Source of the DNA: Sphaerolaimus hirsutus
Lineage: Eukaryota; Nematoda; Chromadorea; Monhysterida; Sphaerolaimidae
Assembly: GCA_964036195.1 (NCBI GenBank)
Contig: OZ038451.1
Coordinates: 10,172,529 to 10,236,528, forward strand
Length of the DNA: 64,000 nt
Direction: 5' to 3'
A model generated the notes under the pieces. That model made no database searches. It had not been told where the DNA came from and was given only the letters and a program-made list of their open reading frames with translations. Both the position numbers and the translations under genes were made by a program. Positions within the stretch are counted from its first letter, which is position 1, and every line of letters starts with the position of its first letter. Positions 10,801 to 52,900 of the stretch are shown one piece after another.

Positions 10801-13800
10801 TCATAAAGTGCAGCCATGCTAATGCAGTGCCATTTATTTATAAAAGATGCAAGATTACCATATTTCCTCGAAATACCCCCTTGAATAAACCCATCTCTAA
10901 CCCCCATGTGTTTTCGAGCTGAGGAAAAAATACCCCCCCCCCCTTAGAAATACCCTCGTCTGGAATGATGTACATCATGTGTACATGATGATGTAGTGTG
11001 GCCACACAAGCTAGTGTAGCGATGTACGTTGATATGACCTTGGCGCTTTTTTGGCGCTTTTTAAAACGCTAGCACCAAGCGCCAATGGCGCCACGCCATC
11101 ATAGCGCCAAGCGCCAAAAGCGCCATGGCGCTTTTTCTTAGCACAGCGCCAAGCGCCAATGACGCCACAGCAAAAAGGCGCCAAACGCCAAAAGCGCCAT
11201 GGCGCTTTTTGTTTTGGCGCTAGCGCCAGGCGCCTGCGCCATGGCCTCTTTTACATCACTAGTCTCAAACTCAGTTATCAAACATAAGATTTGAATACAA
11301 AAACATAAGATCTGGATACACGAAAACATAAGAATTGGATACACAGTAGACACTTTGGAACTGCCCCCAGGTGCTGCGTCAACGAGTGGTAATGAGAAAA
11401 AAATAAAAAGTATAGTAAAGAGTAAAGTTGAGAGTGAAGAGTAGAGTTTTCCTTTTTACTCTACTAATTGCGGAACTGGCCCTAGGTGGCAGTCCCAAGC
11501 CCTGTTAAGTGTCAAATGTAAAGTCAAATGCAAAGTAAACTGTCAAATGTAAAGTCAAATGCAAAGTAAACTGTCAAATGTAAAGTCAAATGCAAAGTAA
11601 ACTGTCAATTGTCATGCAAAGTCCAGTAATAAAATCTTCTCTTTTTTTGTTTTGATTGACACTTAACATTGCATTTGATTTTACAATTTGACACTTTACT
11701 TTACACTTTACAGGGCTTGGGACTGCCCCCAGAATGTCGAGACCCTGTGTTTTTACCCCGTCGGTCATTTACTATTTGAAGGTATTTACCTTGATCCCTT
11801 GCCCATTTAACAAAACAAATATTTACCATACGTGTTGTCAATTTACCTTGGCAGGGTATGCATATAACCCGGAGGTAAGTTTCAAGTGGCAAAAATTTAT
11901 CATCACATGAGTCGATTCACCCGCATGTAAAGTATAGAGCGGTAAACTCAAAGGTGTGATTCATAAGTACCTATGCCTGTTTGGTGCATTTTGGTGTGTG
12001 CAGATGAGTGCAAATATTCATTATGTAGACAGAGACATTTAGTGCATGACAAGTATTCATAAATAGGACGTTCTCATTAGCAAAAATATTTGTGAAGGTT
12101 TTGTAGGAAGGAACATTTGTAGTAATAGCAGGTGGCACTACGCTCTGTGAGCCCACTTGCCCTTCAAGTTTAACAAAATTTGTCATTTCACAAGAAAAAA
12201 AATTCAACTGTCATTGCAGATAAATTGGGGACACAAAACAGAAAAAACAGTGATTACCATAGAATTCACTTACATAACAAAATCGGCATGCAGAGAAAAA
12301 TCATCAGGTGCAAAGCTTTGTGCAAACAAGAGGGACATGCATGTGTATGTACAGCCAATAATCTGCATTATGAGGATTTAAAACTTGATGGTATTGATTT
12401 CTATGTATGGTGGGTGAATGGTAAATCCAAACCTTGGGTTTAACATGAACAGGCGTGCATACTTTGTGTTAGGGTAAATGCATACCCTCATTGTGGGTGA
12501 ATATTTGTTGTGTAGGGTGAATCTTATGTCTGTAAGGTACATTGATATGTAAAGTAAATGGACAAGCCCACAAGGTAAATAAATTCGCAGGGTAAATACA
12601 CCACAAAGGTAAAAGGGCATTCTCCCAGAATGTCTAGTCATTTTGCAGAGACTGTTTGAAACTATAGAATGTATCATCACATTGAGTATTAGTTCAGTTT
12701 ATTATTTAGTGTTAAGTATTCAGTTATAGTATAATATAAATTTTGACTTTTGATACTAAAAAAGAGCTTTGACTGAAAATTTACTGATATTTTGTTATGT
12801 GTCAGAAAATCTATCAAAGATAAAGAATGATAATGTGTATGTGCATAATGTTGCAGTATGTTGCGTGCTTTGCTCTACAGTTGGGAGGGGGGGGGCGATT
12901 CGTGAAACTCAATTCCTGCACTCAAACAAAATTCTGTTTCTGATTAAATTGCTGTGTTCAAGCCCCGTCTGTCCAATGTGCAGCGTTTGAAACAAAATTA
13001 ATTAGCGGACGCTCGCCACCATAGTGCGGCAGGTAACGATTAGCAAGACAAATAGTTTTTGATGCGTTAGTATCGGGGAAACTTCGTATCTTCAGTGTTA
13101 AGGTTGAGATCAAGTCATTGTTACTGCAACATTAATAATTCGAAAGTTACGGCTGCATGGCGGCGAGATCAGAGGGCTGCGTGTGCAACAAGTTTCTGTC
13201 GAGTCGACAGCTGTTGCATGAACATTACCTAATTAAATACAATTGGCTCATTGTTTGACTCTGGCTATGCTGTCATGTGGGATAATCAATGCACCAATCA
13301 GCGGCTTCGATTAATAAATTGATTAATTCATCTTCACCATTTACGATCGTTTCATTTGAACATTTTTTATGGTGATGTACCCACGCCCATAATCTGTTAT
13401 CTGCTGACGAAACTTCTAGTACAGCTCAAGCGATAGCCGATTAAGTACCTAAATGCTTTCATTCCAATCTTTAAATCTCACTGCAGAATTATAGACGCTG
13501 CAGCCGCGTGAGCGCCTGCGGCGGCACAAAAACGGCCGCGCGTTATATTCGGGCTGTAAATTCACACATATCATCCGAGAATGACCGACACGTCGCGGCG
13601 AAACGCGCCCGGCGACGCGGAAATCATGCCGTCAATACATTACGGTCGTTTCAGTTGTCCGCCCTGTCGCCGGGGGCGCATAAATTGCGAATTATGGGCT
13701 CGTTAGCGGGGCACTTGATCGCCGCGCCGCCGTGCGCCTGCTTCAAGTCGCTCGGCTGAATTACTGCGGCCCGGTTATTGAGGGCGGTGCGTGCATCATC

Positions 13801-16800
13801 GTCGGTCTACCGTATTGCCTCGAATAACCCCCCCCCCTCCCCCACCTCAAATCTTCCCAGTGTTAGGCTTATGTGAGAAAAAAATAGAACTACTTTGAAT
13901 ATAGCGACCTTTGTAATGGTCAGGTCTTGCGCAACGCAAAAAAAGCAACGGAGTGGAATTACGAACCCCTTGAATAATTCCCCATTAAATGGATTTCCAC
14001 GGAAATAAATTACGCGCATGTATACATTCATGGTCCATCCCTAGTCCATGACCGCCGACCATCCAACAATGTTTATGAACCAAATCGATCATCTAAATAG
14101 CATCAGACCCGACCGTGTTCATGGAAAAGTGGCTGGGCGCCCGCCCCAAGACGCTCAATAGCTGTCAATGGGGCAAAATTACTTGATTTGTAGTCGCATC
14201 ATAACTGCGCCGCTGCGGTCGTCCAGTTGCAGCCGGGCGGCATTATTCTATAATTTATGTCCACGTTGTGTCCGCGTACCGTCATGATTTAACTCGCACC
14301 GCATGCGTGTACGGTAGCGGTTTTTGTGGAGCTTAATGGAAGCTTTATGCGGATATACGGTTGACACATAGGTAATTCAGTTACTTATTTTTCGGTCCCA
14401 TATGATACTTGTCTGGCGAAATTTCGCTCATGATACTAGTTTCCATAGTTTCCGGTCCTGATATGACAATATCAACTATTACTACTTCCATCATGACCGC
14501 AAAAAGCTGGTGAAATTGACTTTGATATCAATTAAAACGAGATTTTCACTCTTAAACGAAACAACCGAAGTAAAAAAATTGTAATTTGGGGCAGCGGTTT
14601 CAGGGGGACAAAAAACTCGCCGCTACGTCCCCATGAATTAACAGAATCGAACAATTTGACCCATCTTATTGAAATCAAAAGAAACGTTCAAATGTTTTAT
14701 TGTGGGACCGAAAAATATGAACCCGAGTCATTAAGGTTAAATTAAATGTCAGCCGAAACGGACGTCTTAAACCCGGGTCGGGTTATCAAATTTGAGGCTA
14801 TTGAGTGTAGCGATCAAACCAACAAACCACACCGTAGAAGTAAATATTACAACATTTTACAGCTATTGGCACTGACTACTATCAAGTTTTGGTGCTACCA
14901 TTTCAACCCAACACCCTGTACATAGCTACACACGTCAGCAAAAGTTTCATGAGATGCAGCTTTGAGGTGGTGTGGTGCCTTTTTCCATGCCTGGTGCACT
15001 GCACTACACCACACTGCAGTGCACTGCTGAAACCAGCAAATTCATGATAAATGACGCAATGAATTAAACAGTGGAATTCATGCGAGGTTTGGGCTCCTAA
15101 GTTTATGTTTTGATGTTGGTTTGGCGAATTGACGAAATGATTGTGGTCGTGAAAATTCTTTCCTCTACTCCCAAATTTTTAGGCAACATTTTTTTTAACC
15201 ACACACATTTATAGCACGCCGACCGATATTGCTTCAAATTGATCCGTTCTAAACCAAGTTTACGTATTTTGAACAAACACGACAAAAAGCCCAGAACCTC
15301 TGCGATCACATTCTATTTACCATCAATATTTAATTGCTTCAATCGAAATCATGTCACATGCGACAACACCATACATTCACACAAATTGCATGCAATTGGG
15401 CGGAGTTGCGCGAATGCCTCCCTCAAAACACGTGCGGAAGATGTCTAGCGGGCAATCTTGACGCAGCTAATTCGATGCTAATGTTGCGTGTTGCGGCGCT
15501 ACAGTAACCCGCACATGTCTAGCTAGTGCCACTTTATGCGTCTGTTCTGATGTGCTGCTACATGTCTATGAAAGTACAGGCATAGGCATAGATTTTGTAG
15601 CCTTAAGACTCAATTTCTAAAATAAATAATGGGCCCATTCAAATTTGCCCATTCAATAGGCCCATTGAAGCTGCAGATTTCGCTGAAAATGGACTTTTGT
15701 CCAAATTTTGTATCCATATAAATATGCAGCTTAGTACTGTATCATAAGCTAATTACGCACAATAAATAAGGATCGATGCGTCCTTATTAAAACCTTATAT
15801 TTTTGAACAGTATCGGTTTTAAGGCATGTGAAATGTCGAAGGAATTTTTGGGCCGATCTTCCCCCCATATTCGAGCTCAACAAAGCACGCAGCCAGTACA
15901 ATTTCGTGCCGCGCGGCGGCCCATTTCAAAGGCGGCCGCCGCCGCCGCACAAAGTACAACCAATCGCCATAATTCAACCAGCCGCCGCCGCCCGGCAGAG
16001 ACTATCTCGCCTCGCTTTCTTTGTGGCTGGCGCGACACTATTCGCCGCTCGAATATTTGCGGACGCGCTCGCTAGAATGGCGTGTTGGGTCGTTGAAAAT
16101 GAGACCGAAATGCAACTGGGACGCGGGGCGGCGCGAACTAGAACTGAAAAAGTGAAACTCAATGGCTTCCTACTAAGTAGTTGGCACATGCGTGTCAACT
16201 GGGGGCAGTCCCAAGCCCTGTAAAGTGTAAAGTAAAGTGTCAAATGTAAAGTCAAATGCAAAGTAAAGTGTCAATCAAAACAAAAAAGAAAAGATTTTTT
16301 TACTGAACTTTGCATGACAATTGACATTTGACTTTGCATTTGACTTTACATTTGACACTTTACTTTACACTTTACAGGGCTTGGGACTGCCACCTGGTCT
16401 GTGTCAACTCAGATTTCAGCTTACTTCTCGCAGAGCGATGTTCTAATGCACATGCGCTAAAGTTGAAAATTAAAAAAAATAATCAAGTGCATTGGAAGAT
16501 CGCTGTGCGACACGTGAAGCCGAAATCTGAGTTGACACAGACCAGTTGACACACGTGTGCCAACTACTGTATGGGTCATCAACGCAACAGAACTTAATGC
16601 AGCAGTACGCTCAATTCACGCACACAAACAGAACCCAAACCAACAAACGTCAACCGACCATGAAATCTCATCCACGCATACAACGGCCCGGTAGGTCTGG
16701 GCGCACTGGCGTGGGGCATGTGCATCTCGGTGATGGTGGCGCCGTACACGGGGTGGTGGTGCATGAACGGGTGCATGGCGGTCACGGCGGCCGCCGCGTG

Positions 16801-18702
16801 GTAAGCCGCCGCGCCCAGGTCGACTGCAGGCGCGGCTGAAACTCCCGCCGCCGCGGCTGAACTGCACGGCCAGTCGGCTGTTGTCGCCGTTGAAGCGCTC
16901 TGCCTGTTTTTTGGCGGTCTAGTTACAGCTGTACTACAGGGCCCACACACACCAGTTGACATTACAATTTATGTCAATTAAAATTTGGGTTGATTATGTG
17001 AGATCAACTTTCCTATGTTTCCTTTCCTGCCGTTCTATTTTTTTCACCAATATTTTTCAGACATTTTTCATTTGAACATAGTGTTTTTAATGCAAAATGA
17101 ATAACATTTTACTATGAGAGCATCAATTCAAACAAAATCAAATGTGAAAATAACCCTAAATCATAGTTCTGAACACTTTGGATGTTCTTACCAACAATTT
17201 TTCGAATATTTGTGTGTTCTGGCATTCTTCCAACGTAATTTCCACCTGCCGTGCTATTGTAGGTGCCGTGCTATTGGAGGCTGCCGTTCTATTAATTTCG
17301 TGAGGTGCAAAAAATGCCAAAACCTGCCGTTCTATTGGAGGTGCCGTTCTATTGGAGGTATGCCGTTCTATTAGAAGAAATAGGGTGTTTAGATCCACCA
17401 CAAAACTTCGCCCAACCCAGCACACCCCGCCATGGCTTTCATATAGTGCTGTCCATAAATCGAGGCGGCCAGCTGCGCGCTGTGGTGCTGCTCGGCGCCG
17501 CCGCCGCCGTACATGGCCATGTGCTGGTGCGACGTGGACGGCAGCGCCGACACCGCGCCCGCCTGACTCGACGACGGCGTCGACGAGCTGCACAGTGACG
17601 ACTGGCCGAAGGGGCTGCCGCTGCCGCCTGAGTGTTCGTGTTGTCGTTGACTTTGGTGGGCTTTTTAGAGTGTCTAGGGGGCGGTCCCAGACCTTGTAAA
17701 GTGTAACGTAAAGTGTGAAGTGTCATGTAAAATGCCAATCAAAACGATAAAGAACATTTTATTACTGAAATTTGCATGACATTTGACACTTTACTCTACA
17801 CTCGCCATGAAAACTGACACTTTGCATGACATTTTACATGACATTTCACACTTTACTTTACACTTTACAGGGTCTAGGACTGCACCCAACTGTGCACGGC
17901 CAAGCGCAAACGCAAATACCGGGTATAGCCGGCTTGTGCTCGTACAGCTCGGCCTGGCTGGACGCCACGGCGGCGGCGAACGCGGCCGCTGCCGCCGGGT
18001 CGGTTTGCGGCTGCGGCCGTGCCCTGCCGTCGGCACCGATCTGTGCCGCAGCGCTGCTAGATGTCGCCGCGCTGCCATAGAAAGATGTCGCGCCGGCGCC
18101 GCAGAATGCTGGGTGGGCGCCTGCGGAACAGAGTGAGTAAACGAATAACTCCCCCTGTTAGCTGACTGAGGGCAAAATAATTCCCCCGCTCGATTAACTC
18201 CCCCTTATTTACTATCATACATCGTTGCATCGAAATAGTTTAGTGAGGCGACTGGAAGTGTTTGCCGTATTGCGACTGCAACTCGAACTAGACGTTGCGC
18301 GGCGAGAGTCAATCTCGGCCGCATGTCCCAATCGTAAATTCATTTTATCGCTTCCAAACGCGCGCGGCAGCTGCGCTCGCCATAACACCTACTCAATCGG
18401 TCAGCGACTCCGGTACATCGTAACAATAAACTGCGCCATTTTATGCGCAATTTACAAAGTAATAAACTACTAATCGAACCATTAAGGATCGCAATAAACA
18501 GGTCCTCACGCAGCCGCGGCACAAACGCGCCGCGCGGCTCACCTGCATAGCCGCCGGCGGCGAGCTGCGGCCATCCGTAAGCTGCCGCGTGCTGTTCCTG
18601 CTGCAGTCGCTGCTGCTGCTGCTCGTCGAGCGGCGCGGCCGACTGCTGCAGTCCGGCCGCCGCGGCCGCCTGCGACCCCGCCGCCGGCCAATTCGGGAAC
18701 AT
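1889..18702 (-). CDS. mab-5: mab-5-like Hox transcription factor, five exons
   Basis: Nuclear homeodomain protein; by family, an Antp/ftz-class patterning factor that binds TAAT-type sites. Exons in transcript order are 18702-18543, 18120-17920, 17627-17426, 16903-16659 and 2223-1889. The phases join exactly and give 380 aa. Residues 1-250 are rich in Ala, Gln and Gly. The hexapeptide LYAWMR is at 262-267 and the homeodomain at 276-335, with helix 3 motif [15 protein letters not shown] and Gln50. The string [16 protein letters not shown] is the MAB-5-like feature, and the acidic Ser/Asp/Glu tail also resembles MAB-5. Oddities are Ala in place of Pro in the YPWM core and a 14,435-bp intron between hexapeptide and homeobox. 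The exon 4 acceptor could instead be about 45 bp further in (before the Ala run), in the same phase. The gene family is certain; the exact orthology is inferred from the homeodomain. Confidence 0.88.
2027..2206 (-). other. mab-5: Homeobox (60-residue homeodomain), uninterrupted
   Basis: This codes homeodomain residues 1-60 of the mab-5-like gene. Arg5, Trp48, Phe49, Gln50, Asn51 and Arg53 are all present, so DNA binding should be intact. No intron splits the homeobox. The exon starts 17 bp upstream, after a CAG acceptor at 2226-2224. Confidence 0.95.
2545..3158. repeat. Element with CGGCCGTAA-type ends, split by a nested hAT-like element
   Basis: Left part 2545-2611 and right part 3088-3158 repeat the motifs CGGCCGTA and TTTACGGCCGG in opposite orientation. 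The middle is a separate insertion with an exact 8-bp duplication (CCGTAATG). Confidence 0.6.
2612..3087. mobile_element. hAT-like MITE, CAGAGTTGTTAAAA family
   Basis: The right end reads TTTTAACAACTCTG, and the element is flanked on both sides by CCGTAATG (2604-2611 and 3088-3095), an exact 8-bp target duplication. The left end is degenerate. The interior repeats ACGTAAA/TACGCGAGTA motifs shared with the copy at 19.6 kb. Confidence 0.75.
3159..3271. repeat. Fold-back MITE, ACTAGTTGACA family
   Basis: The ends are inverted copies of CACACAC(C/T)(C/A)GTTGA with a shared inner arm (GACACCAAAT). It lies in the large Hox intron. Related copies are at 45.06 and 50.75 kb. Confidence 0.65.
3272..4478. 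other. Intronic AT-rich DNA, nothing recognised
   Basis: No exon with supported splice sites and no structured repeat is seen. Open frames on the minus strand at 4.1-4.45 kb show no recognisable domain. Confidence 0.4.
4479..4702. repeat. Palindromic MITE with CAAGTGGAAAAG ends
   Basis: The left arm CCAGTTCCGCAAGTGGAAAA and the right arm TTTTCCACTTGCGGAACCGG are inverted copies. The inside repeats AACTCTTAACTTTT. Related copies or halves are at 10.49-10.61, 35.66-35.75 and 52.1-52.3 kb. Confidence 0.75.
4800..5183. repeat. Long fold-back MITE with GGCGCTCCACACGCTGGAATG ends
   Basis: The two ends (GCGCTCCACACGCTGGAATG and its inverse) match essentially perfectly. The inner arms, including ACATGGTTTCGC and GCGAAACCATGT, also pair, so much of the 384 bp can form a hairpin. 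Confidence 0.8.
5196..5394. repeat. Fold-back MITE, ACTAGTTGACATCGCAAAT type
   Basis: The left end CACACACTAGTTGACATCG is inverted at the right end. Its close relatives are at 44.85, 52.28, 54.39 and 62.33 kb. Confidence 0.7.
5405..5598. repeat. Fold-back MITE, GCACACTAGTTTTCACACGAAA type
   Basis: It has inverted ends (GCGCACACTAGTTT and its inverse) and an inner arm with ATGAGCTTTGAACG. Related copies are at 23.95 and 39.14 kb. Confidence 0.7.
5840..7050. other. GC-rich island inside the Hox intron
   Basis: A GC-rich stretch unlike its AT-rich surroundings, with GGCGGCGGCGGC-like runs and embedded GATAAATGG/ATAATAACTTT patches. Long open frames on both strands follow from base composition, and none shows a domain or clean splice sites. 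It is interrupted by the CAG-flanked MITE at 6084-6269. A regulatory island is possible but only inferred. Confidence 0.35.
6084..6269. mobile_element. CWG-MITE (introner-like family), intronic copy
   Basis: The left boundary is CAG|GTGCCAGTTCC. The interior is a fold-back of TGTAAAATGTCAAATGTCAT and its inverse, and the right end is GAACTGTCCC followed by CAT. The donor-like end lies on the plus strand, so this copy is antisense to the Hox gene. Confidence 0.75.
7051..8868. other. Intronic DNA with small palindromes only
   Basis: An inverted pair around 8090-8190 (ACCCGGAACCGG, TTTGGGTCGC and inverse) suggests a short MITE. Repeats of CTAGGATGTGAACTGC occur at about 8820-8850. No exon is recognised. 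Confidence 0.35.
8869..9390. mobile_element. hAT-like MITE, CAGGGGTCTCC ends, GATAGATAG interior
   Basis: The element (8877-9382) starts CAGGGGTCTCC and ends GGAGACCCCTG. It is flanked by an exact 8-bp duplication AGCTCCAT at 8869-8876 and 9383-9390. The interior repeats GGATAGATAGATAGCTG and G-runs. No transposase is present. Relatives are at 31.97, 47.1 and 55.12 kb. Confidence 0.88.
9391..10002. other. Intronic AT-rich DNA, nothing recognised
   Basis: No exon, RNA gene or transposon end could be supported. Confidence 0.4.
10003..10407. repeat. G-run fold-back element, degenerate copy
   Basis: The right end TTTCGAGGAAATACTGTA and the internal C-run blocks match the family. The left end is degraded. 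It lies in the Hox intron. Confidence 0.55.
10618..11269. mobile_element. hAT-like MITE, TAGTGATG ends, GGCGCC-rich interior
   Basis: The element at 10626-11261 starts TAGTGATGTAAAAAG and ends with the inverse CTTTTACATCACTA. It is flanked by GTCTCAAA at 10618-10625 and 11262-11269, an exact 8-bp duplication. The interior is many imperfect GGCGCCAAGCGCCAATGG units. A G-run element is nested at about 10857-10962. Confidence 0.9.
11483..11732. mobile_element. CWG-MITE (introner-like family), 250 bp
   Basis: The left boundary is TAG|GTGGCAGTCCCAAGC and the right end is GGGACTGCCCC|CAG. The interior has tandem copies of TCAAATGTAAAGTCAAATGC and a fold-back. This orientation is antisense to the Hox gene. 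Confidence 0.8.
11733..13480. other. Intronic AT-rich DNA, nothing recognised
   Basis: No exon with a domain and splice sites was found on either strand. Short GGTAAAT-rich patches at 12.4-12.6 kb are unexplained. Confidence 0.4.
13481..13800. other. GC-rich island inside the Hox intron
   Basis: About 300 bp of GC-rich sequence containing GGGGGCGCATAAATTGCG and GAATTATGGGCTCG. It resembles the islands at 6-7, 15.9 and 20.1 kb in combining GCCGCC runs with ATAAATT/TTATGG cores. No coding support is seen, and a regulatory role is inference only. Confidence 0.3.
13807..14010. repeat. G-run fold-back element, partial
   Basis: The left end TACCGTATTGCCTCGAATAA with C-runs is clear. The right half is degraded. 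Confidence 0.5.
14011..15840. other. Intronic DNA, nothing recognised
   Basis: No gene, RNA or complete mobile element is supported in this stretch of the Hox intron. Confidence 0.4.
16178..16566. repeat. Fold-back MITE interrupted by a CWG-MITE
   Basis: Outer ends AGTTGGCACATGCGTGTCAACT (left) and its near inverse (right) belong to the family with AGATTTCAGCTT arms. The insertion at 16202-16393 splits the left arm. Removing it restores CAACTGGTCTGTGTCAACTC, the arrangement seen in uninterrupted relatives at 41.13 kb. Confidence 0.8.
16199..16396 (-). mobile_element. CWG-MITE (introner-like family) with an inferable empty site
   Basis: The element body is 16202-16393, flanked by CTG at 16199-16201 and 16394-16396 (CAG on the minus strand). 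Read on the minus strand it is CAG|GTGGCAGTCCC...ACTGCCCC|CAG. The interrupted host MITE shows the pre-insertion sequence, so the 3-bp target duplication is directly supported. Confidence 0.88.
17250..17398. repeat. TGCCGTTCTATTGGAGG repeat
   Basis: Several imperfect direct copies of GCCGTTCTATTGGAGG lie in intron 3 of the Hox gene and end with TTAGAAGAAATAGGGT. A palindromic relative is at 25991-26110. Confidence 0.65.
17674..17889. mobile_element. CWG-MITE filling most of Hox intron 2
   Basis: The ends CTAG|GGGGCGGTCCCAGACC and AGGACTGCACCCAA are degenerate family termini. The copy occupies 216 of the 292 bp of the intron at 17628-17919. Unlike the amph-1 copy, the splice sites used here lie outside the element. 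Confidence 0.75.
18121..18542 (-). other. mab-5: Intron 1 of the mab-5-like gene
   Basis: The donor is G|GTGAGC at the end of exon 1 and the acceptor is CCGCAG before exon 2. It contains a short fragment of the C-run family (about 18140-18205). Confidence 0.7.
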
Positions 18703-20318: not shown

Positions 20319-20547
20319 CTGGTGGCAATCCCAAGCCCTGTAAAGTGTAAAGTAAAGTGTCAAATGTAAAGTCAAATGCAAAGTAAATTGTCAATCAAAA
20401 CAATAAAGAAAAGATTTTATTATTGAACTTTGCATGACAATTGACACTTTACTTTGCATTTGACTTTACATTTGACACTTTGCTTTGCATTTGACTTTAC
20501 ATTTGACACTTTACTTTACACTTTACAGGGCTCGGGACTGCCCCCAG
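20319..20547. mobile_element. CWG-MITE (introner-like family)
   Basis: The left boundary is CTG|GTGGCAATCCCAAGC and the right end is GGGACTGCCCC|CAG. The interior is a fold-back around TCAATCAAAACAATAAAG. Confidence 0.8.
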
Positions 20548-25075: not shown

Positions 25076-25274
25076 CTGGTGGCAATCCCAAGCCCTGTAA
25101 AGTGTAAAGTAAAGTGTCAAATGTAACGTCAAATGCAAAGTAAACTGTCAATCAAAACAAAAAAAAGAAAAGATTTGATTACTGAACTTGCATGACAATT
25201 GACACTTTACTTTGCATTTGACTTTACATTTGACACTTTACTTTACACTTTACAGGGCTTGGGACTGCCCCCAG
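25076..25274. mobile_element. CWG-MITE (introner-like family), near-consensus
   Basis: The ends are CTG|GTGGCAATCCCAAGCCCTG and GGGACTGCCCC|CAG. The arms TGTAAAGTGTAAAGTAAAGT and inverse form a long hairpin around TCAATCAAAACAAAAAAAAG. Confidence 0.85.
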
Positions 25275-38961: not shown

Positions 38962-39106
38962 CTGGGGGTAGTCCCGAGCCCTGTAAAGTGTAAAGTCAAG
39001 TGTCATGTAGAATGTTAAGCAAAATGAAAATATTATGAGAATTGACAAATTTGCATGACATTCGACACTTCAATTTACACTTTACAGGGCTTCGGACTGG
39101 CACCTG
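38962..39106 (-). mobile_element. CWG-MITE, short copy
   Basis: Flanked by CTG at 38962-38964 and 39104-39106 (CAG on the minus strand). On the minus strand it opens CAG|GTGCCAGTCC and closes ACTACCCC|CAG, so it carries donor- and acceptor-like ends. Confidence 0.8.
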
Positions 39107-42156: not shown

Positions 42157-42340
42157 CTGGGGGAGTTCTCAGACCCTGTAAAATGTCTAATGTCATGCAA
42201 AGTGTCAAAAGTCGTGTAAAAGGCCCTGCAAAATGGCAAACACGTTTGCCATTTTGCAGGGCATTTTACACGACTTTTGACAATTTGCACGACATTTGAC
42301 ATTTTACAGGGCACTTTACAGAGTCTGGGAGTGGCACCTG
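42157..42340 (-). mobile_element. CWG-MITE with CTG duplication
   Basis: The flanks are CTG at 42157-42159 and 42338-42340. On the minus strand it reads CAG|GTGCCACTCCC...CCCC|CAG. The inner arms ATGGCAAAC and inverse form the hairpin top. Confidence 0.78.
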
Positions 42341-42930
42341 GCCATCACCAATCATGTTGTACCCTGTAAGACATTTTTCAAATTAAATTACCGCAATATT
42401 TGCATTTATTTCTGCAAAATTCGCACGCACAAAGTATATTTAGGTGGGCATTGCAGTCACTTACCTATAACGCCATGCCTGACCCCATGGGTTTCATGAT
42501 CGGCACTTAACGGTAAAAAAAGATTGTGCAAAAAAGCGATGTGCAATTCACGTTTAGGCAGTCAGTTTATAAAAACGATGTGAAAAGTTAGAATTCCGGC
42601 CAGAGTAAATAAATAAACATAAGCATACGTAAATATTTTACATAACAAATGTATGTAAATATATTGCACCTAAAAATGCATAATTCAATGCAAAGATTTG
42701 CCTGCCAACAACGACCACACAGATTAAGGGATTTTCCACACAAATGCGCATGCAAAAAATGATCACAGATTGAGGAATTTCCATTTTTGCGAATTTGTTG
42801 CTTCAATATTTTTACAATTTGAAAATTTTGGGCTGAAAAAAAGTTTTCGTGGAAACGCCAGAAATCTATCAAAATCAGCAGCGGGCAAAACCTCAACAAA
42901 GACGACGCGAATCAAAGCGGAAAAGCTGAT

Positions 42931-43088
42931 CAGGGGGCAGTCCCAGACCATGTAAAGTTAAGTAAAGTGTCCAATGTCATGTAAAATATCAATAAGATTG
43001 TATCACTGAACTTTGGATGACAAATGACACTTGACTCTACATGTTCCATGACACTTTGGCACTTTCCAAGGCTTGGAACTGCCCCCAG
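42931..43088. mobile_element. CWG-MITE just beyond the amph-1 stop codon
   Basis: Flanked by CAG on both sides, with GGGGCAGTCCCAGACC and GGAACTGCCCC ends. It ends 17 bp from the amph-1 stop, so it probably lies in the 3' untranslated region. Confidence 0.75.
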
Positions 43089-43104: not shown

Positions 43105-46100
43105 CTACACGGGCTTAGTAAAGTTCTGCGGGAAGACGCCCCTGTGGCCGGTGGCGAGCACGACGCCCATGAGCCAGCCCTCGTCCTGCTCGTCGGGGTC
43201 GTCGTAGGGCACCACGGCGATCAGCTCGCCCGCCTCGAAGCTCAGCTCGTCGCTGTCTTCAGCCGTGTACTTGTGAGTCGCTCGCACCTGTGTGAGGGTG
43301 GGTGCATGTTGGGTACGGTCTTGGGTGGGGCTAAGTTGGCATGTGGGCTTGCTAGTCATGTAAACTAGCCGATCGTGGAGACCCGGCCGTCATGTAAGTT
43401 TACCCAGCTGTCATGTATACCCACTAGTCATGTATGGGAAGCGTAATAACTTGTGGCAAATTAGTGACAGACAATCGACTAGTCATGCCCGCTTGTCATG
43501 TATGTCACCCATACATGATGTGGGGTCTACATGACTGGCTGATAGAATTACTTGAATTCTAATTTCTTTTGTATTTTGTCTGCACTGGTGTTGGTGGGGC
43601 TAAGTTGGGATGTGGGCCTGCCAGTCATGTAAACTAGCTGATCATGTAAACCCGGAAGTCATGTAATTTTACATGGGCATCATGTAATTCTACCCAGCCG
43701 TCATTTATACCCGCTAGTCATGTATGGGAGGCGCAATAACTAGCGGGCAAATTAGCGACAAGCAATCGACTAGTCATGCCCGCTAGTCATGTATGTCACG
43801 TCACCCATACATGTTGAGAGGGTCTACATGACTGGCCGATAGAATTACTTGAATTCAAATTTCTTTTGAAATTCGTCTGTATTAGGTGTCAATATTTTCC
43901 TTTGATTACAATGATATTCCATTCTCACTCGATTAAATAATGCAGTTAAATGATGTTCTCACTTCTCGGAAACGAAGAGACCCCCATGCTGCAATTTGAT
44001 TGCATGTTACTGAACTAAACAGAAATGTCACTGGATTAGTGATCAGGGAGTTTGTCAAACATTTTTAAATAACGTATTTAGAACGTCAATCATTCGCGCA
44101 GTATTGAATGCGCCGACTAGAGATCAAACAATAGCACACTGCAATTAAAAAATGCACACAAATTGCAGCCGCATAAAACACAGTTCATCTGATCGTAGAA
44201 CATGCCTTACAATGGTCCATCGGCAAGTACACGGCGACGGGTGCAAAGATATCTACACGGCGACAAAAATGGCCGTTCATGCGAACATGTATGCTCACAT
44301 AAAAAGTAGGCAAATTGTGCGGCCGACACGTAAACTGCTCAACATGTGCAGGGGTCCTAGGGACAACTCCCATACCCTGTAAAATGTCAAGTGTCATGCA
44401 AATTGTCAAAAGTCATGTAAAATGCCCTGCAGAATCGCAAATTAGTTTGACATTTTACAGCGTAATTTACATGACTCTAGACGGTTTGCACCACAGTTGA
44501 CATTTTACAGGCCCTTGGAATGCCCCCAAAGACGGGGGATTCTCTCGTCTAAATGAACCGCCCACACAGAATCCATACGATGGAGCCCCCGAGCACATGC
44601 TAGCGCATTTTACGCGCACGGCGACATCAAAGCAAGCAAAAGAGCCGAACACACCTTGAACAATATGGTCGGTTCACCCTTTGCCTGCGCCGCGGCGGCG
44701 CCCGCCTCGTGTGGTTTTACGGCCGTGCCGCGCGCAGTCGCACCTGCCAATTGGATGCCACCTCAGAATCAGACAAAAAATAAAAATAAAAAAAATTTTA
44801 AGATGGATTTAAAGATGTTAAGTGATTTGATGGGCCCACAAGGACCACACACACTAGTTGACATCGCAAATTCGTGTCAACTCAATGTCAACTATATAAC
44901 ACAAAGAAAATTGTAAGCATCACACTTAACAGAAACAATGAAAATCAAGTGGTATGAAGTAAACTTAACTATACTCTTTCAGATCGGAAAGTTGATATCA
45001 CATAATTCACTAAAATTTAGTTGACACGAATTCAGTTGACATCCAGCGTGTGTGGCGCCACACACACACTAGTTGACATCGACACCAAATCTCAACTGGT
45101 TCCCATCCCAATATGAAAGCTTGCTCAGGAGCCGACGAATGACGTTCGAATGCAAGCTTTGAATTGGGATGGGAACCAGTTGACACTTGGTGTCGATGTC
45201 AACTAGTGCGTGTGGGCCCAATTGAACGTGTGTTTGTGTTGAGGGAAGCAAAAAGTTAGTGGCAATGGTGAATGACGGAAATTCAAAAACAAAACCGTGC
45301 TCATAGAATGAAATAATAGAAAATAGAAAAGTATTCTAAATATCGGGCAGTCTGGTCACTAGTCAGTTAATGTGTCTGCGAGCGAACACTGAAAAAATAA
45401 CCCATTAGGGAACACCCACTCCATGAAACATATAGAGGTAGTGAAAAATCACAAAAAAATTTCGATAACGAATTGATTGTAAATAGTTACAAAGTGAAAT
45501 ATTTTTCAATTATCCAGAATGCTTAGATAGATAAATAATTCCTCCAGTGTGCGCTCCAGGTGCCAATTCCGCAAGTTGAGCAGTAAAAAACAAACAATTT
45601 AAGTGTGAGAAAAAAAGTTTAAAAGAAAAGTAAATTTAGAAGTGAGAAGTGAAGAAACAAATGGCAAATGTGAAAACGCTGTAAAAATAAATAAAATTGA
45701 AAGAAACGCAAAAGTCTTACTTCACTAGGGTTGGAAAAAAACGTTTTTTTTTTAACTCGATGTTTTTTTTAAAAGCTCCCAGATATGACCTAGTGTCAAC
45801 ATATATAGGTATATCAGACACTGGCAATACTCTGTGATGATAAATATGACCATATAATGGCTGTGGAGCCATGGGATAGCATTATAAGTGGTGATTTGTG
45901 TCAAAAATATCCATTTTTTGTCGACATATCGTTCGTATATCGCCTTATAGTCAAATGTTCGTGACTTCAGGTAAAGTTTGGCACGGAATGGTGATTAAAC
46001 AAGGTTATAAAAGGAGGTTGTTACTTTGGGAGTGAAGTTACACACTGTGGAGGTACATGGAAGCACATTACCTCAATATTATATATTACAGCAACATATG

Positions 46101-49100
46101 TCGGCTTATTCACCCATGGTAGCACATAGAAATGGATGTTTTGATGCTAAAAATGCAACAAAACCAATGAAAACAACCACCAATGTCAATTTGTGTGTGA
46201 AATTGCGCGCTTGCGCGCAAAAATTTTGCAAAATACCTAGTGCTCAGTACTAAAAATTTTGGCCGATGTTTTTTAAAAAAAACAAACATTTCGGACGTCG
46301 TTTAAAAAAAAAAAAAACGTTTTAAAAAAAACATCGGCCAACCCTATACTTCACACTTTAAAATATACTTTTATTTTAAACTTTCCCTTTTCATGCACTT
46401 CTTACTTCTAATTTTGCTTGTTTTATCTTTTGCTTACGGTTTTTTATTTCTCAACTAGCTTATTGACCGCGGGCAAGAACAATTATCCAACAAAGAAAGC
46501 CCCAGCAAAACAGCGCGCGTAAAAAAACCCCACCTGGCTTATCAGACTCCGCCTTTTCCTTATCCTCATCACCCTCTTTCTTATCATCCGCATCACTGGT
46601 GCCCGCCTTCACGCTCAGCTGAGCCGTGGCTTCATTACTGTTCATCTGCTGGGGGCAATCCCAGACCCCGTAAAGTGTCAAGTCAAGTGTAAAATGTCAT
46701 GTAAAATGTCAATCAAAACAAAAATAACAGATTTTATTACTGAACTTTGCGTGACAATTGATTGACACTTTACATTACAATTGACACTTTGAATGACCTT
46801 TCACACTTCACTTTATACTTGACAGTGTCCGGGACTGGCCACCTGCACAGTGGTCGTAACGGGCGGGCTGGCCGGCGGGCTGCCGGTGCCGTCGCTGCCC
46901 GACCCGAACGGGTTGGCGCCGTCGGTGCCCGTCTTGGACTCAGGGATCGGTTTAGATGGAGTGGTGGGAGATTTTGTGGGTGTTGTGGCGGCTAGAGGTT
47001 TGTTTGAAGAGCTGGTCGGCGAGGAGGCCAGCGTCTGTGTGAAAGGCATGATTTTTGTAATAAAAATGCTTTACTAAAATGGAAAATGCAAAAGGGGTCT
47101 TCTAGATTTCGACCCTCCGGGGGTTTGGATAGATAGCAAATCGCTCCTCCGGAGGGATAGATAGCTGAGAAATTTTCTGGGGCGGTCGGGGGGGTTCGCG
47201 GGGGTTCAATATATAGACATAGAAGGAAGAAAAGGGAGAAAAATCGCTAAGGTGAAAAATGGGTATATAAGTACATATACTACTAAAAATAGCTGAAAAT
47301 AGGTAGTTAGACGCTTGAACTAGTGATTTTGGAGGTGCAAATCTATAAAAAGGTATAAAAATAGCGATATTGAGCGAAAATAGGGGTCGTTTCTCAACCC
47401 CCCCCCTTTCCTACCCCTGAAGTGCACTTAATTACACACTAGGCTTCCGAAATGAATTATTGACTAACCGGATAAACGGAATTCGACTTTTCTTCACCGA
47501 CATCGACACCATTCTCCTTCGGTTGATCTGGAATTTTTTTAAATGATTAATTGGACGATAATTAACCGTATGTTATTGGTTCATTGTAATGAGAAGACTA
47601 TCAGCTATTTCAGTTGCCAATAAGCACCCTGGCATGTGACATGTTATATTTCAGACGTTCAAAGCTTAACTTCCAAAATGACTGGTATTATGGTCTTATG
47701 GACCTTTTATTAAATACCATTTACATGGAATCAGTAATCACAAACACCGTTTGTAACTTGACAGGATGCAGCATTTACATTTACATAAACGTCATGTTTC
47801 TTGTCTCACGTGGTAGTTTTGGCCACTCAATTCCATTTCCACTTCCCAATATTTATGCACTTTTGCCCATCCCATTACTATTTTACATACATAAGTTCCT
47901 CAAAAAAGCCCGCATTGACAACTATGGAATTATTTTTAGCCGATGACTATCGTCACGTTTTTTACCCATCCCCTCCCCAACACACAACGGACACCTGTGT
48001 ATTTGCAATCCACACGTCGTATCGCTGCAAAAATAAAACTCCCCGAAAAGCGAACCCCCTGCCAGCTGCGGATCAGCGGGGAAAAAATGTGCCGCGCGGC
48101 GGCAAAACCGACCGCCGTGCAGCGCGCAAAGCGGCGACATTACCGTACGGAGTCAACTTTTGGCGGGTCTGCGTCATAATCCAAGTGTGCGCAATACAAT
48201 CCGGCTTGATCCAAGCGCAAAATAGGGCAAAATTAAAGTAAAAGTGCCGCAAAATCCAAGCACAAAATCAGGCATAATCCAAGCAAAAATCGCACTAAAT
48301 CCAAACAAAAGTACTGTATAATCCAGGCAAAATTCATTTTACCCCCAGCCCCAGGTGTCCTGTATTCTTAATACTTTGCTGTGCACACTAGTTTGCACTT
48401 TGAATATGGTGAAAACTGAAATTTAATTTAAATGTGAATTTAAATTTATGGAAGTTTACATTTGAAAATTTGAAGAAAAAAAACACATAGCATACAAAAA
48501 TTGCACTGGATGGCACCATGTCACAATTTTAGTTTTCACAGAAGTCACGGTGGAAACTAGTGTGACCATATTGCATCACCTGTGCATAACAGATATAATG
48601 GATAGATAGATAATTAGCAATTGTTAGCATTGCAGCTGCCATGGACATGAATATTCTGGTGTGGCTGACCCACTCAAATTTTACATGGTTTGTCCATAGA
48701 AAATTTCCACACATAAAAATTTACATGTATAATCTATGCATAAACAAACATGAATACAGAAAAGCGTTTGGATTGTGCCAAATTTTTGCTTGAATTGTGC
48801 GCTATCTCGCATTTGGATTTTGCTGTAGCATGTGGCACAAAGTGAGTCGACTTTGCAGCTGAAGTGCATGGATTATGCGCAAAAACTGCTTGGATTATGC
48901 TCGATTAGATTATGCACACTTGGATTTCGGTTCATCCCCACTTTTGGCCCTTTCGCGGCGGCAGCGCGGCCACTGTCGCGCACGAGCGGCCAGCATTAGT
49001 GTCGCAACCATATTTGCATTTTGTCCGCGCAGAGGTTGTTGACAGAGGAAAAGGTGGCCCCCCAAAATGCCTCCAAAATGTGGAAAATGACGATAAAAAC

Positions 49101-52100
49101 ACGTTCGGCGCAAATCTATTGGAACGTGGGGCTTTTGAGCTTGTCGCCTAGGAGGCGTTTAAATAGCTGATTTCAGAGTATAATGACAGGGAAATACAGA
49201 AGTTATACAACCCTGCATTGCAAATAGTGTAGTGCAAACAATGCAGCGTACACTGATGTATTAATGCATATAAATCCCGATATAAAGTTCATCTAAAGCC
49301 CGCTACCGAAATTTCGTACACACGTAAATACATATTTTAGGTATGCATTTGAATTCACATTAGTGTATCTACCTGTAGTTGAAACATCGCATCGAAGCGT
49401 TCAAAATGAATGTACTGTCCACTAAGAAATCCAGTTACATCCACTTATGTCGCATTATTTATGAACACTGTCATAACAAGAACGCTGCAGACGTCTTTCT
49501 CTTTGATGTCAAGGTCGATGGACTGCATTCGCTGAGTCCAGGGGCACGGTTGAATTTGCCCGACAAATTCTCGGGCAGCCCGATACATTGAGTCAGGCAA
49601 TGTGAATATATTTCAGTTGCAGTGATTAGCGGCCCGCATACTAGTTGACAATTTTCACTGTGTTCATTTCCGAACTCAAAATTTTGGATTTGGTGCCAGC
49701 GCCAAAACAAACCGTGCCAAACACACAACAAAATGGCGCCAAGCACCAAGAGCGCCATGGTACTTTTTTGCTTTGGCGCTAGTAAGAAATTCGAAATTTT
49801 TAGTATTTACGCAGCTGAACACAGTACGCAAAATGTCAACTATTTTGCGGGCCGCCGCCAATCGGGTAACCCGAAAAACGAAGTCTACGAACTGAATTTG
49901 GCACCTGCACCTTCACTCTCAAATCACCAACTAAAATCCATCGGAATAAACACATTACCTACGCGCATCGATCAAATCGTTCAATCAATTACTTTTTGCA
50001 CGAGTTATTGAATTGGTACGCGTTATTACTTTTCTGAATGTAGGCGTACTCGAAAATATGCGCTACAGACCACAGGCTTTGTAAATAGTACAGACCCCGA
50101 TTAATTGAATCGTCCCTCAATTGTGAATAACAAGAATGAAAATGGCGAGATGAGCACAAAAACAAAAAAAAACAAAAAAAAACGCGACATTAAAAAATGC
50201 CTGCAATCTCGCCGTCTCGAAACAGCTGCAGTTTTTTATCAAACATTTTCGCTGTTGAAAATGAAAATGTTAGCTAACATCCATCTCTGCGAAAACAGGC
50301 GCGCCGCTTTTGCAGAATAGCGTAGTGCAAAAGGATACGCGGTAAAATACACAAGATACGGCAAATGTGAAAACTGATAGGAGGATTTGTGAATGCCGGA
50401 TGGAATAAATGTCGAATGAAAAAATTAAGACAAAACATTTGCCACGCCTTTTCACACTGATCAAATTCACGCGGTACATTGCTTTACCTTTTTCTCGAAA
50501 CGAGACAATTTTTTATCGAAACGATGACAAAAACAGTCATTGCATGACTCACGCATGACTGGTATAAAAATGATAGACTCAAAAAAAACCCGCAAAAAAG
50601 GTGGCAAAAGATAGCGCGCGCACGCAATTGACAATGGTAGCTGAACAATACAACATACCTAAATGAATGGGCATATAAAAACTAGAGCAGATGGAACGTG
50701 GAAAATCTGCAGCCAGTTAAGTGATAACTAATTTTGTAGTCAATGGCCCCCCCCACACACTAGTTGACAACGACACCAAATGTCAACTGGGTCCGATCCC
50801 AATTCAAAGATTGCTTACGAGCCAACGAACGATGTTAAAATGCAAACTTTGAATTGGGCTCGGAACCAGTTGACATTTGGTGTCGATGTCAACTAGTAAA
50901 GTAAATGTGGGGCCATTAGACAAGTAAAGTTGCAAATGAAAATGCTCTTGAAAAAAATTACTCAACACTCGAAAAAGTGAAGAAAAAAAACTGTCCCAAA
51001 AGCGACAGAACCCCCTAACCCCCCCCCAAAAAAACGCACCACCATCACCACTGGGCTGCTTCCCCTCCCCCACATCCGTCTCACCACTGGGCCCATTGGC
51101 ATTAACCCCATCACTGCCAGTCGGCTTCACATAGGCGGGCGGGGGAGGGGGCGGCGGCAGGTCGGCTATTTGCGGCCGGGCCACGCGCAACTGCGCCGCG
51201 TGCGTGGATAGCTGCTCCAGGAGGAGAGCCAATTCGTGCTCGATCTGAAAGGTGGTTTATGGGGTGGAGGGGGTTTTGAATGGGGGTTAAGGAGGGGGGT
51301 AACCACCCGCTAAATCGGCAGCTATCCTGGAGTCAAATTTTTTGGCCACTATCCCCTGAACCCCCCGCTCCCAATCGACCGGATATCCAGACATGGAGAG
51401 ATTTTTGGGAAATTTACTGAACCCCCGCAACCCCCCCCCCCAAAAAAAAAAGTTGTCAGCTATTATCCCTCCGGAGAACCGATTTGCTATATATCCAACC
51501 CCAGGAGGGTCAAAATTCAGATACCCCTGCGCGGTAGCGAACTGGTCGGATTTTGAAAGAGGTTGTTGATTGATTGGTCAACTAGCGAACCTTGGAACAG
51601 TCGACGTGGAAACTGCTGGTGATATCGAACAGGGCGGAGAAATTATCGGAATAGAATTTGACGCGGCTGCGAATGAAAGTTCACAGTAAAGCGACAATAA
51701 AGAAACGAGAATAATAAGTAGGTAAAATGTAGGACTGTGGTCAAGCGCACTTGTCAAACAATTCCGGCAGCTGCTCCAACAGTTCAGCATTAATCTGCCC
51801 ATAAAGATTCTGCGCGTGTGTCAACTGCTCCGTAGTTCTAGCGATCTTATGCTCATCGCCTTTCTTGCCCTGCGGCGCCCTACATGCGAGTAGGGCATGT
51901 CGGGCGCTGTCGTAGTCGAGCAGCTTCCTGCCGCGCTTCTCGATCTTGGTCTTGAGCTCGGTGAAGCACGCGTTGTACTGCACGGCCGGCTGGACCACGT
52001 GCTCGTTCAGTTTTTCGGCGTAGTCCTCGTAGAGCAGATCGATGGACTGAGGGAAGAATGTACGGTTTTTTAGATGCTAGACACAGAGGATAGGAAAAAT

Positions 52101-52900
52101 GCGTAGAAAGAGTAGAGGTCAAATCCGCAAGTGGAGAATTATAGTTTTTAGTTTAATTTTGCAAATTTTCTCATTTCACTTCTAAAGTTATTTAGCTTCA
52201 ACTTTTCTTTCTCCGTTCACATCACTTTTAACTTCCCACTTCTAAAATGGTCTGCAACTTCTCCATATGCGGTATTTGACCTACACACACACACACACTA
52301 GTTGACATCGCAAATTGATGTCAACTAAATGTCAACTAAATAGCGCAAAACATACTATCATGGCACTTAAGCAAAGTATCATACTTAACAGAAATAATGA
52401 AAATGTGCCACGATATAAAATTAACTATGCTCTATCACATAGGAAAAGGTGAAATAACACAATTAACCAAAATTAGCTGAATTTAGTTGACAAGAATTTT
52501 GATGTCAACTAGTGTGTGGGCACATGGGCTCAAGAAGTCCCCCAAACCTGCGTCATAGCAGCCACATGTTCCCTCTCAGGCCAGTGCGCCTCATAAACCT
52601 CCCTAAGTGCCTCATTGACTCCATGTGCCGCTTGTCCAAGAGTTCTGGCGCAAGAAGCATAATGTCGCAACTGTTTAGCTAGTTTGTCTGCGGCCGCTTG
52701 CTGTCTGCTGAAATTGGCTAACTGCTCGTCGAAGCCCTCGTCGGTGGTCCGGTCGGCCTTGCCCAGGCTCTCGAGAAGCTGTGGGAGGTTTTTTGGGGGG
52801 TTTTTTGATAGTGAATCAATGTGTAATAAAATGGTGGGCACACCTTTTCCTTGGCTCGAGTTGTCTGCTTCTTGAAGTTGCGTGCAATTAAATCGCCCAT
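43105..52900 (-). CDS. amph-1: Amphiphysin/BIN1 homologue with BAR and SH3 domains, ten exons
   Basis: Membrane-bending adaptor of endocytosis and recycling (family knowledge). Exons are 52900-52844, 52778-52548, 52046-51751, 51666-51591, 51244-51040, 47527-47469, 47034-46843, 46648-46534, 44743-44655 and 43287-43105. All phases match, giving 500 aa. The BAR domain is about residues 1-225: the amphipathic start [19 protein letters not shown], then [36 protein letters not shown] and [11 protein letters not shown] proline run and a Ser/Thr/Glu-rich linker follow. The SH3 domain (residues 441-500) has [29 protein letters not shown] and GVFPQNF. Exon 6 is only 59 bp but is required by phase. Intron 7 is an introner-like transposon. 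It is divergent to the JADE-like gene. The family assignment is very strong. Confidence 0.93.
43322..43885. repeat. Tandem duplication of about 280 bp in the last amph-1 intron
   Basis: Two diverged copies begin GGTGGGGCTAAGTTGG at about 43322 and 43594. Each holds many AGTCATGTA/TCATGTAAAC motifs and ends near ATAGAATTACTTGAATTC. The second copy is slightly longer. Confidence 0.75.
44355..44529. mobile_element. CWG-MITE, degenerate, in amph-1 intron 9
   Basis: TAG|GGACAACTCCCATACCC and TTGGAATGCCCCCAA are decayed family ends around a hairpin of TGTAAAATGTCAAGTGTCAT. Here the host splice sites are elsewhere. Confidence 0.7.
44848..45222. repeat. Two adjacent fold-back MITEs of the ACTAGTTGACA group
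   Basis: The first, about 44848-45059, has TTGACATCGCAAATTCGTG arms. The second, about 45060-45222, has TTGACATCGACACCAAAT arms. Both end in inverted CACACACTAG sequences. Confidence 0.7.
45718..46354. mobile_element. hAT-like MITE, TAGGGTTGG ends, second copy
   Basis: The element at 45726-46346 starts TAGGGTTGGAAAAAAACG and ends CGGCCAACCCTA. It is flanked by TACTTCAC on both sides, an exact 8-bp duplication. It is the reverse-orientation sister of 32927-33603 and lies in amph-1 intron 8. Confidence 0.92.
46649..46842 (-). mobile_element. Introner-like CWG-MITE that constitutes amph-1 intron 7
   Basis: The intron runs from GT at 46842-46841 to AG at 46650-46649. The transposon body is 46652-46842 (191 bp). 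CAG duplicates, minus strand, lie at 46845-46843 (end of exon 7) and 46651-46649 (end of the intron). The body opens GTGGCCAGTCCCGGACAC and closes GGGATTGCCCC, the family ends. Intron thus equals element plus one duplicate, and splicing leaves the exon frame unchanged (GTG CAG joined to CAG ATG). Confidence 0.88.
47092..47417. repeat. Degenerate GATAGATAG hAT-like element in amph-1 intron 6
   Basis: The left end AAAAGGGGTCTTCTAGATTT and the right end CCTACCCCTG frame GGATAGATAGC motifs as in 8877-9382. The flanks no longer show a clear duplication. Confidence 0.6.
47535..48176. other. amph-1 intron 5, proximal part
   Basis: AT-rich to 47.95 kb, then a GC-rich patch at about 48.05-48.17 kb. 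No exon is required by phase and none is recognised. Confidence 0.35.
48177..48928. mobile_element. Inverted-repeat element with ATAATCCAAGTGTGC ends
   Basis: The left end ATAATCCAAGTGTGCGCAAT and the right end (inverse of AAATCCAAGTGTGCATAAT) match. Subterminal AATCCAAGC motifs repeat many times in both arms. A fold-back MITE of the GCACACTAGTTT type is nested at about 48383-48571. Confidence 0.7.
48929..50753. other. amph-1 intron 5, distal part
   Basis: A GC-rich patch lies at 48.94-49.14 kb, which would join the patch at 48.05-48.17 kb if the element between them were removed. A GGCGCC fragment is at 49.69-49.79 kb. No exon is supported. Confidence 0.35.
50754..50915. repeat. Fold-back MITE, GACACCAAATGTCAACTGG type
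   Basis: The arms CACACACTAGTTGACAACGA and inverse match the copies at 3.16 and 45.06 kb. Confidence 0.7.
51296..51533. repeat. Degenerate GATAGATAG-type element in amph-1 intron 4
   Basis: G-run and CTATCCCTCCGGAG sequence ending TTCAGATACCCCTG, as in the CAGGGGT family. The left end is lost. Confidence 0.5.
52282..52523. repeat. Fold-back MITE filling half of amph-1 intron 2
   Basis: The arms CACACTAGTTGACATCGCAAA and TTTTGATGTCAACTAGTGTG bound it. The splice sites of the intron (52547-52047) lie outside it. Confidence 0.75.

Follow-up and report, generated by a model that had tools for sequence, protein, structure and literature searches.

A near-palindromic MITE that probably acts as an introner in the nematode Sphaerolaimus hirsutus

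A family of short repeated elements in Sphaerolaimus hirsutus has copies that lie exactly between coding exons in many unrelated genes, among them amph-1, where a copy coincides with intron 7. Our reading, to which we assign a probability of roughly 0.88, is that the family consists of non-autonomous MITEs of near-palindromic sequence that duplicate a CWG target, act as introners and, at CTG targets, give rise to an apparent GT-TG class of introns. The source of new introns in animals is a long-standing puzzle, and here a single nematode genome offers the element and its target together with young copies, older copies in exons and one empty site. Should RNA data confirm the CTG class, the AG rule would be broken constitutively in core genes, for instance in EFTUD2, a part of the spliceosome that is itself host to a CTG copy, and tolerance at 3' splice sites could be tested directly in a worm.

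The element in amph-1 and its relatives in the window

The amph-1 (amphiphysin/BIN1) gene was assembled by hand from exons running from 52900 to 43105 (1500 nt, 499 amino acids plus stop). Pfam recovers an SH3 domain and two BAR pieces in its product, one of the latter above the cut-off and the other below; amphiphysin/BIN1 structures match both the BAR and the SH3 parts, and the closest proteins include ones from Trichinella and Trichuris. All nine introns of this model (9/9) are GT-AG. On the minus strand the junctions of intron 7 read ..ACC ACT GTG CAG|GTGGCCAGTCCC...GGGATTGCCCC CAG|CAG ATG AAC.., and the intron (46842-46649, 194 nt, phase 0) equals the 191 bp element plus one copy of the duplicated CAG, with borders CAG|GTGGCC..CCCCCAG|CAG and exon 8 starting at 46648. 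The earlier note had described just this geometry, with the GT donor taken from the element and the AG from the duplicate, and both the sequence and the 10-exon model agree with it, as they do with the claim that removal restores the frame: the unspliced frame reads VASPGHCQV and then stops, after nine codons, and 194 nt is no multiple of three. The donor CAG|GTGGCC resembles some neighbouring amph-1 donors (CAG|GTGGGG, ATG|GTGGTG), and the CAGCAG at the 3' end permits either AG, giving an intron of 194 or 197 nt with the frame kept and a difference of one Gln. To judge by their ends, the introns of the CAG class, that of amph-1 included, are ordinary U2 GT-AG introns.

Within the window, by which we mean the whole 64-kb stretch of DNA analysed, 11 near-full-length and 5 partial copies of the family were found (Table 1), in line with the 'about a dozen' first estimated. 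In two of them (20319-20547 and 25076-25274) the position of the GT end with respect to the asymmetric centre is the reverse of that in the amph-1 copy, and nhmmer prefers the other strand, so that ends and centre have been mutually inverted in some copies. The minus strand also carries a likely Hox gene at 1889-18744, with a homeodomain at 1889-2308 (Pfam), a YAWM-like motif near 16594-16968 and alanine-rich coding blocks upstream, between two of which lies a diverged family copy; this copy was considered as a second co-terminal intron of the window and dropped, the splice sites probably being offset from the element ends. A reverse-transcriptase-like open frame (RVT_1, below the Pfam cut-off) was seen on the plus strand at 56266-57231.

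Table 1. Positions of amph-1 features, family copies in the window and U2AF1-like loci elsewhere in the genome
Feature	Position	Strand	Basis or remark
amph-1 (amphiphysin/BIN1) gene, 10 exons, BAR and SH3 domains	43105..52900	-	hand-built model, Pfam, structure matches
amph-1 exon 7	46843..47034	-	gene model
amph-1 exon 8	46534..46648	-	gene model
Putative introner element, B-like ends and A-like centre, target duplications excluded	46652..46842	-	forms intron 7 with 46649-46651
Left copy of the duplicated CAG (3 bp), final codon of exon 7	46843..46845	-	sequence, gene model
Right CAG of the duplication, supplies AG acceptor of intron 7	46649..46651	-	sequence, gene model
Family copy nested in amph-1 intron 9 (44654-43288), not co-terminal	44350..44537		similarity search, gene model
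Family copy just 3' of amph-1 stop codon, both ends GG	42931..43088		inner similarity favours minus strand
Family copy, degenerate ends	6084..6270	+	similarity search
Family copy, A ends (TAG..CAG)	11483..11732	+	similarity search
Family copy, A ends (CAG..CAG)	16199..16396	-	among exact-end CAG..CAG copies
Diverged family copy flanked by two likely coding blocks of Hox-like gene	17674..17892	-	similarity search
Family copy, A ends (CTG..CAG)	20319..20547	+	similarity search
Family copy, A ends (CTG..CAG)	25076..25274	+	among exact-end CTG..CAG copies
Family copy (CAG..CAG)	38962..39106	-	similarity search
Family copy, B-like, degenerate ends	42157..42341	-	similarity search
U2AF1-like locus, conserved	C14:3032346-3038004		matching extra contig C720
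U2AF1-like locus, extra contig	C720:101296-108657		matches C14
U2AF1-like locus, diverged	C16:15183258-15191469		

Target, number and age of the copies

Searched in the canonical orientation with exact-end patterns, which favour copies with kept ends, the 348-Mb assembly holds 511 CAG..CAG, 429 CTG..CTG, 212 CTG..CAG and 104 CAG..CTG copies, and a reversed control pattern gave 0 in all four classes; further tallies were 1665 first-look candidates and 1357 exact B right ends. The two flanking triplets match in 940 of 1256 exact-end copies and are mixed in the other 316 (about a quarter). Because CAG..CAG and CTG..CTG outnumber the mixed classes while the control is empty, the duplicated target is CWG: the 3-bp duplicated triplet of the earlier note stands, while CAG as the sole target does not, given the 429 CTG..CTG copies. 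The bases next to the target are skewed, C being preferred in front and G behind; at position +1, G stands in 86-91% of the CTG copies and in 52-54% of the CAG copies. The GT start is almost fixed (12 GG-start vs 511 GT-start CAG..CAG copies). The elements are short and palindromic, with terminal inverted repeats, high copy number and no coding capacity, as befits MITEs.

We grouped the copies by their ends into A (TCCCAAGCC) and B, which comprises all others, mostly TCCCAGACC. Nearest-neighbour identity (median) is 0.979 in 36 A copies and 0.885 in 93 B copies (173-202 bp long), and 31/36 A copies fetched have a relative at >=95% identity, vs 2/93 B copies; B copies differ by ~21% (median) from one another and by ~11% from their nearest relative. 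On these identities the A copies are young and the B copies older, so that the phrase 'recent and possibly active' of the earlier note is best borne out by the A copies, rather than by copies with the B ends that the amph-1 copy carries. The young A copies lie mostly outside exons and the older B copies commonly exactly between coding exons, although the exonic share of B is a biased estimate, since the exact-end patterns favour copies with kept ends.

Ends of the two mixed types, CTG..CAG and CAG..CTG, are common among the A-ended young copies too; by eye, A accounts for ~61/100 CTG..CAG rows and ~70/100 CAG..CTG rows among the matches listed. The middle base of the CWG duplication thus often differs between the two sides, even in young copies. 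The excess of CTG..CAG over CAG..CTG (212 vs 104) was considered as selection for AG, an explanation that we dropped because A-ended copies show the imbalance as well.

An asymmetric centre is present in 36/36 A copies and absent from 90/93 B copies. The B majority sequence forms one uninterrupted hairpin (-165 kcal/mol, z -27.7) with bases 5 to 185 paired and only GUGC and CCCCCUG free; individual copies, such as that of amph-1, fold less well (-75.4 kcal/mol, z -8.2, for 46649-46845, the element with both CAGs). The amph-1 element is mixed and no typical B copy: its ends are B-like, but its centre is A-like (92% over 48 nt). With the A majority sequence, which it fits better than the B majority, it shares 75% identity over 204 columns. 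An A-like centre also occurs in L002, L003, L005, L010 and L011, which are among the best first-look matches and exonic by eye, and the A-like centre of the amph-1 copy was found in 0/15 Pfam-verified loci (see below).

Coding junctions, the CTG class and rival explanations

In a joining test, the element and one triplet were removed and an open sense frame of at least 90 nt was required on each side. Joined sense frames were open in 25/27 CAG-B, 16/26 CTG-B, 2/13 CAG-A and 6/23 CTG-A loci, and antisense frames in 17, 10, 0 and 1 of the same loci, respectively; the B flanks are GC-rich and their antisense frames often open as well, which makes homology the more telling test. Forty B-ended sense ORFs, most picked for their coding look, were run against Pfam: 15/40 matched at E<1e-4, 14 above the family cut-off and one (ZIP) below, whereas 0/20 antisense ORFs, most of them taken at loci that lack sense evidence, matched at E<=0.01. 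The tandem duplicates L116/L117 count as one. Five of the matches are CAG-type (FAT4-type cadherin, a second cadherin, LRR, calpain, ZIP); only ZIP spans the junction, calpain has one domain on each side, the FAT4-type cadherin match stops at the junction, and the LRR and other cadherin matches are one-sided. The nine CTG..CTG matches (EFTU_D2, E1_dh, sugar transporter, Srx receptor, kinase-like, PLOD, aminotransferase, Sec23/24, mitochondrial carrier) all span the junction (9/9), the mitochondrial carrier by three residues only, and the single CTG..CAG match (AMP-binding) also runs across it. Weak matches were left uncounted (TUDOR 0.0016, DUF4715 0.0029, Gemini_mov 0.0061, zf-C2H2 0.0066). 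When 10 of 30 first-look loci, most of which combine ends and centre as the amph-1 copy does, were searched in the same way, two matched (L003, a kinase domain across the junction at 4.6e-14; L002, a WD40 repeat beside it), seven gave nothing and L005 had a weak saposin-domain match (0.0047).

A codon-bias score trained on amph-1 and the 15 verified loci was applied to the remaining 75 GT-start B loci. With 60-nt windows, 20 sense and 0 antisense frames scored >2 in these, vs 0 and 0 in 36 A loci; B frames passing were 19 sense and 4 antisense with 45-nt windows and 20 sense and 1 antisense with 75-nt windows, the latter also passing one sense A frame. Introns at unrelated positions thus share sequence up to both of their predicted borders. 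The introner logic that the earlier note drew from amph-1, namely GT from the element, the 3' end from the duplicated triplet and the exon restored, fits that gene and recurs at many others, and the co-terminal copies that it proposed to seek genome-wide do exist, in sense orientation and at exact coding junctions of many unrelated genes. The phenomenon is larger in S. hirsutus than was stated there.

Two single cases stand apart. L015, a young A copy of CTG..CTG type from outside the 36 A loci scored and one of the seven first-look loci with no Pfam match, has a joined frame that by eye looks coding (..AWLRDNSPDPSTFHL|GGDTRARMLRMDQMRVDVRW..); L139/L140, a GG-start B copy in a duplicated locus, has joined flanks that look coding (..NITYLLAGTR|GICMLLDN..), which, if they are, would imply removal without GT and a weaker need for the GT start.

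CTG copies interrupt conserved genes, including EFTUD2, BCKDHA, PLOD, GCAT and Sec24, and all five joined CTG ORFs compared with PDB sequences (U5-116K/EFTUD2, BCKDHA, KBL/GCAT, LH3/PLOD and an SLC2-type transporter of the xylose symporter family) align without a gap at the junction. The positions are C1:20014882-20015065 for EFTUD2, C1:8335220-8335414 for BCKDHA and C3:7360420-7360607 for GCAT. For the nine verified CTG loci we enumerated all registers giving the identical joined sequence: in 9/9, GT..TG is the only register that starts with GT, and none ends with AG. If excision is exact, the CTG class would therefore apparently lack GT-AG ends. Homology shows that both flanks are coding and collinear, and at the RNA level TG would be the 3' end; as CTG copies too sit at exact coding junctions, the 3' end of introner introns would often be TG. 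The CTG-type genes might instead be spliced at ordinary GT-AG sites elsewhere, the protein tolerating an insertion or a lost stretch, which we regard as unlikely but the strongest of the alternatives. Among pairs enumerated inside the element (in-frame, stop-free, intron >=40 nt), some GT-AG pair exists in 8/9 loci, many copies have ACAG 19 nt before the end, and the smallest insertion is only 6 aa in PLOD (L129), followed by 14 in the SLC2-type and Sec24 genes and 17 in Srx. Yet the BCKDHA element holds no such pair, that of EFTUD2 has no AG within its last 50 nt, and conserved domains would have to gain 21 aa in the RGC-kinase and the phosphate carrier, 22 in EFTUD2 and 26 in GCAT; GT-AG sites in the flanking exons would remove conserved residues.

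One empty site is observed. An SLC25A3-type phosphate-carrier gene on C3 holds a CTG copy, whereas the C13 paralogue is uninterrupted there, the two aligning at 86% over 137 nt with no gap. In the same pair (L131/L161 and L162), the C3 gene is without an apparent intron that the C13 paralogue has ~26 nt past the introner site. The empty site speaks against the view that the element entered older introns and came to have splice sites at its ends by chance or later trimming, as does the recurrence of exact co-termination with one restored triplet at many unrelated genes; although some copies do sit inside longer ordinary introns (amph-1 intron 9 and, by eye, the cadherin locus L006), and the Hox-like copy probably has offset splice sites, we consider this view very improbable. 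We give equally little credence to the interrupted genes being broken copies, pseudogenes or lost alleles in which nothing is spliced: read-through adds an in-frame stop in 14/14 loci examined and the phosphate carrier has a paralogue, but the flanking exons are open and conserved despite the divergence of the B copies (~11% and ~21%, as above), and many unrelated core genes are interrupted. Least probable of all is excision from DNA, as of ciliate IESs, rather than from RNA, since, although precise transposon excision would remove the element and one target copy without needing AG, a DNA cut should ignore gene direction while the exonic copies are sense-oriented (20 vs 0 by codon bias; 0/20 antisense ORFs), and element copies are present in the assembly.

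Proposed mechanism and comparison with known systems

We therefore return to the introner reading. Insertion into coding sequence with the GTG end upstream would bring the element's own 5' splice site, GT being its first two bases, and the second copy of the duplicated CWG would become the last three bases of the intron; removal of the element and one triplet, presumably by the spliceosome, would restore the exon, with an RNA hairpin drawing both junctions together. A CAG target would yield an ordinary GT-AG intron, as in amph-1, and a CTG target an apparent GT-TG intron. On a fuller version our judgement is evenly balanced: CTG-target introns, a large share of a large transposon-made set, would be removed constitutively without AG, the hairpin presenting their ends to a tolerant spliceosome, perhaps with a second U2AF1-like protein, and births at either CWG form would be followed by CTG-to-CAG changes that make ordinary introns. 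Matching a U2AF1 sequence to the contigs of the genome gave two U2AF1-like genes. One lies on C14 and again on contig C720 (67-73% identity); the other, on C16 (38-72%), is diverged mostly in its middle part. Three matches, on C14, C720 and C16, carry one stop each. The second gene as a helper of non-AG splicing is only a lead.

Several known systems resemble this family, and a paper later than the introner survey cited below reportedly deals with horizontal transfer of introners. Akin to the introner elements of Amoebophrya, the copies have an inverted-repeat hairpin that joins the exon borders, short direct repeats and non-canonical ends, but splice motifs there are very diverse and no inverted repeats specific to a family were found, whereas here one family has near-fixed GT and CWG ends (PMC7789003). 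The nonconventional introns of euglenids and diplonemids likewise have ends joined by a hairpin, a proposed MITE origin and insertion at new positions, and are described as lacking conserved borders (PMC6221363, PMC12621601); in the nematode family the hairpin joins the ends in silico, but the GT start is conserved (12 GG-start vs 511 GT-start CAG..CAG copies). In another animal, Fritillaria borealis, the spliceosome takes non-AG 3' ends and there are two U2AF1 genes (PMC13326754). However, 95% of introns there escape GT/AG (PMC13326754), whereas here apparently only CTG introners do, and the other introns of amph-1 are 8/8 GT-AG. In human genes, TG can serve as the 3' end of GT introns, but needs a nearby AG, at most 28 nt away, and no constitutive TG acceptor came to light there (PMC2374985); the EFTUD2 copy, by contrast, lacks such an AG. 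The 5'-CWG-3' target duplications recall the NuwaI transposons of the PHIS superfamily, found mainly in animals (PMC4482050).

The closest parallel is with introners proper, described from Micromonas, Aureococcus, dinoflagellates and others (Gozashti et al. 2022, PMC9860276). As in these, repeated elements end at intron ends, many families have target duplications and terminal inverted repeats, and one splice site is carried by the element while the other comes from the duplication; the Chrysochromulina introner (target duplication, no terminal inverted repeats) likewise brings its own 5' site and recruits the 3' one (PMC9860276). Among animals and land plants the survey gives only two groups, both animals, and its main text uses 'nematod' 0 times (PMC9860276); a paper on nematode introns treats introners, where it mentions them, only as known elsewhere (PMC9169325), and a full-text literature search, with preprints and most subscription papers outside its coverage, returned no nematode introner in titles or the starts of abstracts. 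The family in S. hirsutus differs from the introners of the survey in its nematode host and in its CTG/TG class (PMC9860276), and adds a new animal example to a known phenomenon, possibly with a new class of intron ends.
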